A stretch of 64,000 nucleotides of DNA from Flavobacteriales bacterium UBA4466 (lineage in GTDB: Bacteria; Bacteroidota; Bacteroidia; Flavobacteriales_D; Crocinitomicaceae). Numbering within the stretch: position 1 is the stretch's first letter; each line of letters starts with the position of its first letter. A program made the translations under genes and the position numbers. The notes beneath the pieces are model-generated. The model did no database searches. It was not told the DNA's origin and saw only the letters and a list, made by a program, of their open reading frames with translations. The stretch covers positions 124,001-188,000 of the forward strand of contig CAJJBE010000004.1 of NCBI GenBank assembly GCA_905182335.1, written 5' to 3'. Positions 60,599 to 62,700 of this stretch are shown piece after piece.

Positions 60599-61162
60599 GT
60601 GAAAGTGAAGTTAAATAGAGATTATATTATACCCTTTGTTGGTTTAAAGATAGGGGCGCACAAATTTGAGTTTAACATTACAGACACGTTCTTTGATAAC
60701 TATGAGTATTCAATAATTCGCAGGGGAAATGTTAAGATCGAGCTGATTTTAGACAAAAAAGAAACAATGCTTATTGGTAATTATGCCATCAGAGGAGTTG
60801 TCCAGTCTGAATGCGATCGTTGTACTGACCCAATCGAAATTGACGTTGCAGGGGATTATCAACTTGTTTATAAGTTTGATAACGAGGCTTGTGACGACGA
60901 ATCATTAATTATTATTTACCCTGAAGAATTTGAATTGGATATTTCTGTAAATATTCTTGAGCTCATGATGGTTTCTTTGCCCTTGAGGTCAATTCATGAT
61001 GAAGGTGAGTGTAATGAGGAAATGATTGAACAATTAAAGGAGTATGTATTAGTTGAAGAAAAATTTGATAATGAAGACGATGAGGACTTGTCTGATGATT
61101 CAGAAGACGAAGATAACGATGATATTGATCCTCGTTGGTCAGTATTAAAAGGATTAAAATAG
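60599..61162 (+). CDS. DUF177 (YceD-like) protein upstream of rpmF
   Basis: The protein has 187 residues. The DUF177 domain is indicated by the CxxC zinc-like pair with the conserved upstream block (AIRGVVQSECDRCTDPIEI, about residues 63-81) and by VNILELMMVSLPLRSIHDEGEC near 118-139. The tail is strongly acidic (EKFDNEDDEDLSDDSEDED) and ends in DPRWSVLKGLK, the usual C-terminus of the family. In other bacteria DUF177/YceD is needed for 23S rRNA accumulation or processing. The start is a GTG at 60599 (no ATG fits). The gene sits next to rpmF, which is the classic pairing. Confidence 0.9.
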   Translation: MKVKLNRDYIIPFVGLKIGAHKFEFNITDTFFDNYEYSIIRRGNVKIELILDKKETMLIGNYAIRGVVQSECDRCTDPIEIDVAGDYQLVYKFDNEACDDESLIIIYPEEFELDISVNILELMMVSLPLRSIHDEGECNEEMIEQLKEYVLVEEKFDNEDDEDLSDDSEDEDNDDIDPRWSVLKGLK

Positions 61163-61457: not shown

Positions 61458-61500
61458 GTAACTGTGAGTTAATTCTTCACTAATGAGGATTGATATTAGA

Positions 61501-61608
61501 GTTCTAAAAAGTGGGGTAAGACCCACTATATAATACTCTTCAATGGGGGCCTTAAAGCCCAAAGGCGACCGGGGTGATTCTTGTGTGGCCTTTCATTGTT
61601 TTTAGAAC
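61501..61608 (+). ncRNA. Candidate structured RNA between rpmF and fabH
   Basis: The segment is bracketed by a perfect 10-bp pairing, GTTCTAAAAA (61501-61510) with TTTTTAGAAC (61599-61608). Inside it are a hairpin GTGGG/CCCAC (61511-61526), then a stem CAATG (61541-61545) with CATTG (61594-61598), then a hairpin GGGC/GCCC (about 61547-61560), and a stem AAAGGC (61561-61566) with GCCTTT (61588-61593). It is GC-richer than its surroundings and has no coding frame. An outer stem, asymmetric bubble and apical stems resemble the layout of 6S-type RNAs, but I cannot confirm a family. The opposite strand would end in GTGGG-loop-CCCAC then T5, a terminator-like shape, so the strand is uncertain. A leader for fabH is also possible. 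Confidence 0.45.
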
Positions 61609-61640
61609 TATATTGTCTGATGGTTTCATCAATTTTATCA

Positions 61641-61662
61641 GTGAGAATGTATACATTGTCAC
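61641..61662. promoter_or_regulatory. 22-bp imperfect palindrome, possible operator upstream of fabH
   Basis: GTGAgAATGTATACATTgTCAC has a perfect 12-bp core (AATGTATACATT) and matching GTGA/TCAC ends with one mismatched pair. It lies 49 bases before the fabH ATG and fits a dimeric repressor of fatty-acid synthesis, though no such protein is identified here. Confidence 0.45.
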
Positions 61663-61710
61663 TAGTTTAATAGTAGGAATTTTTGATTAAAACAGAGTAT
61701 TAAATTTATT

Positions 61711-62700
61711 ATGAGTAAAATAACTGCAGGAATAACAGGAGTACAGGGCTATTTACCAGAATATGTTCTTACGAATGAAGAGCTTTCTACAATCGTAGAC
61801 ACCAATGACGAATGGATTACATCTAGAACAGGAATAAAGGAAAGGCGTATCATGAAAGATGGTGCATCTTCTGATATGGCTACTGGTGCAGTTGAGGCTT
61901 TGCTAAAGAAAACGAATATAGCACCTGAAGATGTTGATTTGGTTATTTTGGCTACTGTAACTCCAGACTACCCTTTCCCTAGTACAGCTAATGTATTGTG
62001 TGATAAAGTCGGAATGAAGAATGCATGGGGATTCGATTTAATCGCGGCGTGTTCAGGATTTATTTACGGACTTGCTACAGGTGCTCAATTTATTGAAACG
62101 GGGAGGTATAAGAAAGTAATTGTTGTTGGAGTAGATAAAATGAGTTCAATCATCGATTACGAAGACAGAACGACTTGCGTAATCTTTGGAGATGGTGCTG
62201 GTGCAGTAATGCTAGAACCAAATGAAGAAGGTTTAGGAGTTCAAGACTTTATCCTTCGCTCTGATGGTTCAGGAAGAAATTACTTACTTCAGCCTGGTGG
62301 AGGTTCAAAAAATCCAGCATCAGCGGAGACAGTTGAAAAGAAAATGCACTTTGTAAAACAAGAAGGAAAACAAGTTTTCAAATTTGCAGTAACAAATATG
62401 GCCGAGGTCTCTGCGGAAATAATGGAGAAGAATAACCTAACAAGCGATGATGTTGATTGGCTTGTCCCTCATCAAGCGAACTTAAGGATTATTGACGCCA
62501 CAGCAAAACGCATGGGGCTTCCAAAAGAAAAAGTTATGATAAACATTGAGAAGTATGGCAATACAACCGCTGGAACCTTGCCTTTATGTTTATGGGATTA
62601 TGAAAAGCAATTAAAGAAAGGGGATACGCTAATATTATCTGCATTTGGTGGAGGTTTCACTTGGGGCGCAGTATATATTAAATGGGCATATAACTCGTAA
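61711..62700 (+). CDS. fabH: Beta-ketoacyl-ACP synthase III (FabH)
   Basis: FabH starts each fatty acid chain by condensing acetyl-CoA with malonyl-ACP. The 329 residues have the catalytic cysteine near residue 113 in [16 protein letters not shown], the histidine in [20 protein letters not shown] near 252, and the asparagine in [20 protein letters not shown] near 282. The N-terminus ([26 protein letters not shown]) is standard. It precedes accB, so the initiation and carboxylation steps of fatty-acid synthesis are encoded together. Confidence 0.96.

Follow-up and report, generated by a model that had tools for sequence, protein, structure and literature searches.

6S RNA binds RNA polymerase, and a long closing stem is conserved in its family. 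Xist is a mammalian non-coding RNA that arose from a protein gene since lost. Three kinds of bacterial RNA invite comparison with the locus described here: the autogenous leaders of ribosomal-protein messengers (r-leaders; PMC7247131), the leader-peptide attenuators (PMC9723704) and 6S-Flavo RNA (RF01685; PMC2864571). The accessible portion of the r-leader survey lists no Bacteroidota leader for L32, the product of rpmF (PMC7247131). As far as the excerpted text of PMC2864571 describes it, a large search for bacterial structured RNAs began from intergenic regions, so an element inside a gene would have been passed over. In the open-licence literature, we recognized no description of an RNA element within plsX or in the rpmF-fabH interval.

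The window, that is, the whole stretch of DNA analyzed, comprises 64,000 nucleotides of Flavobacteriales bacterium UBA4466 (family Crocinitomicaceae), and its features are given in Table 1. A sequence-only reading had singled out a strongly folded segment of 108 nt (61501-61608) at the usual position of plsX. Pfam matches for the flanking rpmF and fabH genes confirm this position, and the strong folding is borne out. The plus strand folds at -39.6 kcal/mol vs -26.22 (sd 3.59) for shuffles (z -3.73; 1 of 200 as stable) and the minus strand at -30.6 (z -2.99; 0 of 200 as stable). The closing stem is also as it had been described, a perfect 10-bp helix in which GTTCTAAAAA is fully complementary to TTTTTAGAAC.

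Table 1. Coordinates of the features around the rpmF-fabH spacer of the window
Feature	Position	Strand	Evidence or remark
YceD (DUF177) gene, upstream neighbor of rpmF	60599..61162	+	Pfam PF02620, E 1.4e-17
rpmF, ribosomal protein L32	61266..61457	+	Pfam PF01783, E 5.9e-20
Inverted repeat over former plsX start codon (TTCTTCACTAATGAGGA)	61473..61489	+	Candidate RNA helix; pairs hardly vary
Putative short ORF from former plsX start, 16 codons + stop	61483..61533	+	Ends 28 nt before the hairpin
5' hairpin, common to the window and its two closest genomes (G015, G023) only	61498..61539	+	Covariation
Outer stem of the sequence-only reading, left arm	61501..61510	+	Perfect in the window; two closest relatives without compensatory change
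Core hairpin and last tail base, AAAGGCGAC-stem-loop-stem-GTGGCCTTTC	61561..61594	+	Covariation; model R1 match, E 1.9e-10
Outer stem of the sequence-only reading, right arm	61599..61608	+	Perfect in the window; two closest relatives without compensatory change
fabH, 3-oxoacyl-ACP synthase III	61711..62700	+	Pfam PF08541 and PF08545

Compensatory changes in relatives had been proposed as the test of this fold. The outer stem fails it and an inner hairpin, described below, passes. Across the three closest genomes, no pair of the outer stem has changed on both sides, and the stem is partly broken without compensation. With 86.7% of its cells paired, it does not exceed shuffles (87.8%), and the absence of covariation in these three sequences speaks against it as the conserved feature. 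In the 5' hairpin of the same genomes, 4 of 15 pairs have changed on both sides, a count reached by 5 of 500 shuffles. Because some bases are used by both, the 5' hairpin and the outer stem are partly mutually exclusive. As the outer stem lacks compensation whereas the 5' hairpin compensates, the 108-nt fold is a local elaboration around an older core. Extra hairpins are specific to single plsX-less lineages. In one plsX-less genome (locus L056, genome G028) GTATAAATGATCC-TTCG-GGCTTTTCATTTATAC directly follows the core hairpin and, judged by eye, could form a second long hairpin. A wider outer helix, also seen by eye (e.g., AACG with CGTT in G022 and G028), is absent from the 44-sequence consensus fold. 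Between the core hairpin and fabH lies AGTGAGAATGTATACATTGTCACT (61640-61663), a 24-bp near-perfect palindrome that is near-identical in G015 and G023 and is the sole such site in the genome when up to 3 mismatches are allowed; it is perhaps a fabH operator.

The overall outline of the window's own fold had also suggested a 6S-type RNA, a proposal that now seems scarcely credible. In a covariance-model search that included 6S-Flavo and related families, no Rfam family reached its gathering score in the window. Five weak matches appeared at the locus up to E 10, none to a 6S family, and the five sub-threshold matches to 6S-Flavo in the whole genome all lie on other contigs (best 25.8 bits vs a cut-off of 85). 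The corresponding loci of 8 relatives gave no supported match; a single chance-like match fell off the hairpin. The outer stem behind the analogy is not conserved in the three sequences, and in most relatives the corresponding place is coding plsX sequence.

The inner hairpin is found in relatives in the usual form UAGGCGAC-stem-loop-stem-GUGGCCUUUC, with a lower stem and flanking letters that are nearly fixed and an upper stem that varies and compensates (for instance CAAGA/UCUUG, CAGGA/UCCUG, ACACAGA/UUUGUGU and AGAGA/UCUCU). Standard pairs fill 97.2% of the pair cells in 33 sequences (32 distinct). In the same sequences, 16 cells have changed on both sides vs 5.8 (sd 2.0) in shuffles, none of 500 shuffles reached 16, and slid versions of the pairing gave at most 8. 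The weakest measure was the number of pairs with a double change (4 vs 2.3; 28 of 500 shuffles as high). RNAalifold, given 44 sequences with flanks, predicted the core hairpin as the sole pairing, with compensatory changes in 4 of its 9 pairs. The hunch that a functional folded RNA occupies the plsX position thus survives in this inner hairpin, which covaries.

Read on the plus strand, the non-Watson-Crick cells of the core stem comprise 22 GU and 1 UG vs 1 AC, 2 CU and 1 AA. The predominance of G-U on this strand, together with the paired changes of the two arms, favors RNA over DNA and the plus over the minus strand. A site acting as DNA (a protein operator, or a recombination or segregation site) would fit an inverted repeat with fixed outer letters and at most one strong copy per genome. 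Because the arms change in pairs with G-U intermediates on one strand, we consider it very improbable. A minus-strand RNA with a built-in terminator, also raised by the sequence-only reading, is unlikely since one-sided stem changes are G-U on the plus strand; no terminator-like site was found inside 61501-61608 on either strand. Two genera deviate: g29 has an altered lower stem (GGT..TGCC) and g30 lacks the U-rich tail. Comparison of relatives shows the core hairpin to be a conserved plus-strand RNA structure that lies behind rpmF and is independent of the PlsX protein.

At E 2e-5 or better, a covariance model of the element (R1, 33 sequences) matched 87 of the 200 family genomes, in 7 genera and in 33 of the 34 genomes of the window's genus, and in an order-wide draw of 349 genomes it gave only three matches outside the family (E 0.001 to 0.008); both searches used fast filters, which can lose weak matches. 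Strong matches are confined to Crocinitomicaceae and lie beside rpmF. Of forty R1 matches examined, 34 coincide with plsX. The remaining six are weak (L178, L179 and L181-L184; E 5e-4 or worse) and lie away from rpmF, plsX and fabH; L179 and L181 look like ordinary terminators and L182 lies within another gene. An exact pattern retrieved 27 stretches in named genomes, from records of Fluviicola, Crocinitomicaceae, Flavobacteriales, Taishania pollutisoli and three less specific names, and rpmF adjoins the motif in every one. None of the relatives searched by pattern has two copies, and at most one strong copy occurs per genome. We rejected a regulon of several copies, the second-best R1 match in the window's genome having an E value of only 0.2. 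Because almost every locus with a strong match has rpmF, plsX and fabH together, synteny is silent on which gene is the target. The plsX that holds the element in Taishania pollutisoli (L220) is full-length. In Flavobacteriales bacterium UBA2040 (locus L206, 5364-6574), plsX is split into one part for residues 1-193 and another for residues 195-312, with 278 nt between them and the hairpin intact; this split is an insertion or an assembly fault.

Within the genus, 30 loci allowed the rpmF-fabH gap to be read. Seventeen measure about 965 nt and contain plsX, 12 measure 89-353 nt and lack it, and one (L048) is a broken contig. Where plsX is intact, the hairpin lies about 110 nt past the start codon, over codons for IGDQ..ILSGLS. 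In 20 congeners, the excess of synonymous identity over codons 38-49 is 0.346, vs a mean of 0.066 and a maximum of 0.166 elsewhere in the gene. In 10 plsX genes of more distant origin (other genera, other families), the corresponding codons give -0.040. We kept 69 distinct full-length plsX frames. A larger set of 52 plsX genes, 50 after removal of near-copies, gave an excess of 0.385 at the hairpin; this set was selected partly by the hairpin pattern, and therefore the 20 congeners, chosen by kinship, are the fair test. The comparison shows that the hairpin within plsX is constrained beyond what the protein appears to need. About 30 nt upstream of the hairpin, the leucine codon 28 of plsX in relatives (e.g., L039) shows an unusually constant synonymous choice, with an excess of 0.55. 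An upstream GAAAGG, noticed by eye at several loci as a possible antiterminator partner of CCUUUC, was rejected as explicable by coding, with little synonymous-identity excess at its codons.

A search for PlsX over 60 relatives failed to find the gene in 13 genomes of the genus, namely the window's own and 12 of 33 congeners. Twelve of these 13 genomes keep the hairpin (11 of 12 short gaps in the 30-locus reading); the exception, G001, has an 89-nt gap and lost plsX and hairpin together. Among 22 genomes of the genus searched for plsY (PF02660), the gene is missing in all 8 without plsX and in 2 of the 14 with it. As plsY is missing beside plsX, the whole PlsX-PlsY route seems gone. Judging by the eight genomes missing both (G000, G001, G007, G008, G015, G016, G018 and G021), the acyl-phosphate route to phosphatidic acid has been lost repeatedly within one genus. 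By parsimony, which alone cannot separate losses from regains, the presence of plsX requires at least 6 state changes on a 41-row fabH tree; the starred branches force 6, the bootstrap range is 6-7, and 7 are counted if only losses are allowed. This tree covers 33 of the 34 genomes of the genus (G011 has no fabH match) and 8 others, and as a single-gene tree it has weak deep branches; two g30 rows fall within the window's genus with hardly any support.

One account of the retained hairpin is that it is an undecayed remainder of plsX. The short spacers do hold such remains: the start of the gene in 12 of 12 and its 3' end in several (e.g., L052, L056 and L057). We compared the spacers of 11 of the 12 plsX-less genomes that carry the element (G032 joined only from the analysis of the start region on). 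Mean identity is 0.80 for the element (lowest 0.51) and 0.47 for the rest of the spacer (highest 0.77). The element exceeds the rest in all 55 pairs of gaps, whereas in a functionless pseudogene no part would stand above the decay background. The compensatory changes, the constraint already present in coding plsX and the retention of the hairpin through the state changes counted above also speak against a plain relic, which is strongly disfavored. Some plsX losses are perhaps recent, so that part of the hairpin conservation could be slow decay. That the hairpin is still present where plsX has been deleted suggests a function of the RNA itself.

The start of plsX also left its mark. A loose pattern detected the inverted repeat over the start codon (TTCTTC..ATGAAGA and variants) at 28 of the 29 congener loci counted, the genus comprising 34 genomes. 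In each of the 12 plsX-less genomes that carry the hairpin, the frame from this start either runs through the hairpin or stops no more than 30 nt short of it, vs 3 of 24 for the other frames. Seven of these genomes have the stop 6-8 nt ahead of the hairpin and one has it 13 nt ahead; in the window the distance is 28 nt, and in the other 3 genomes the stop lies past the hairpin. In shuffles, the joint probability of this retention is 1.6e-5 over 7 lineages and 8.6e-5 over 6, under a control that assumes complete decay when some losses may be recent. The encoded peptides are alike in their first residues only. Because of this and because the frame ends before the hairpin in 9 of 12 genomes, the hairpin does not appear to be kept for the peptide.

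A short frame that often stops just ahead of a stem with a U-rich tail, which many species have, raises the possibility of an intrinsic terminator or a ribosome-controlled attenuator between rpmF and the fatty-acid genes, in which the hairpin and UUUCUU would halt the polymerase except when the hairpin is covered by a ribosome translating the short ORF. The accessible part of PMC9723704 proposes leader-peptide attenuation for amino-acid operons of a flavobacterium. We nevertheless consider this explanation quite improbable. Terminator scores were above 0 in 3 of 11 plsX-less loci and in 1 of 57 plsX genes (the 57 of 69 that matched the scoring pattern; 12 did not), vs 39 and 47 for two ordinary terminators of relatives, and some plsX-less loci lie near the threshold. 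In most lineages the tail has not turned into a T-run after the loss of plsX, and in g30 the U-rich tail is missing altogether. Plain intrinsic termination is not supported.

Alternatively, a small RNA transcribed here, within plsX wherever that gene persists, could act in trans and be kept after the loss for regulating other messengers. This would agree with the independence of the element from PlsX and with the extra hairpins around it in the window's clade. Against it, the letters of the apical stem and loop vary, leaving no constant unpaired seed in the hairpin. No good terminator was found, and a scan of sigma-70 type, which does not cover Bacteroidota promoters, found no promoter-like site upstream of the hairpin. 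We consider a trans-acting RNA unlikely.

The reading we prefer, with a probability of roughly 0.55, is that the element is a cis-acting, translation-linked RNA hairpin of the yceD-rpmF-(plsX)-fabH messenger that has outlived its host gene, plsX. In plsX-less genomes the hairpin lies 102-134 nt from rpmF; its distance to fabH is 52-186 nt without plsX and some 800 nt with it. We infer action in cis because the distance to rpmF is steady and that to fabH is not, and because the open frame seems to be kept up to the hairpin. The fixed lower stem suggests a specific partner. Ribosomes starting at the old plsX start would run up to or through the hairpin, and an RNA-binding factor could read its sequence-fixed lower stem and UUUC tail. 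The first candidates for this factor would be L32, YceD or an RNase; YceD is reportedly linked to 23S rRNA accumulation in plants (PMC5049393). The factor might determine how stable the rpmF messenger is or how it is processed, and how strongly downstream fabH is expressed. Any mechanism beyond 'cis-acting and translation-linked' is a guess. Evidence against the preferred reading is that G001 lacks both plsX and the element, that g29 and g30 vary in the lower stem and the tail, respectively, and that the tree is built from one gene.

A bolder version, which we advance tentatively and lean against, is that a regulatory hairpin lay within an enzyme gene and that each of six or seven losses of plsX in one genus trimmed the gene to three remnants, namely the hairpin, the start signal and a short junk ORF. 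A bacterial gene would then have been converted naturally, and repeatedly, into a regulatory RNA, and the ribosome on the junk ORF would belong to a device by which L32 synthesis is coupled to the onset of fatty-acid synthesis. The loss of plsX exposes a hidden element. Because the gene was deleted again and again while the hairpin stayed, nature has in effect run an experiment in which the role of the RNA can be told apart from that of the protein. A connection of a ribosomal-protein gene with fatty-acid synthesis thereby becomes open to testing, and the case suggests looking for more such elements as conserved islands at the sites of lost genes.

Of the functions named in the sequence-only reading, a fabH or ribosomal-operon leader comes nearest to the evidence, but the element lies behind rpmF and inside plsX and is thus not a leader. 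It resembles the r-leaders as a small, clade-specific and covarying RNA structure tied to a ribosomal-protein gene. It differs from them in its place, downstream of rpmF and inside the next gene instead of in the leader, and in having only candidate ligands. With 6S-Flavo RNA it shares the host phylum, Bacteroidota, and a structured RNA. The difference is that the element is a 33-nt core hairpin in a coding gene, with no match to that family and an outer stem that is not conserved. The short open frame ending just before the hairpin recalls the leader-peptide attenuators. Unlike in those systems, the peptide is unconserved past its first residues, the hairpin is a poor terminator and we noticed no control codons. 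Like Xist, the element has a putative non-coding function at the site of a lost protein gene. In the bacterial case, however, the element is constrained while the gene still codes, and the loss of the gene recurs within a single genus.
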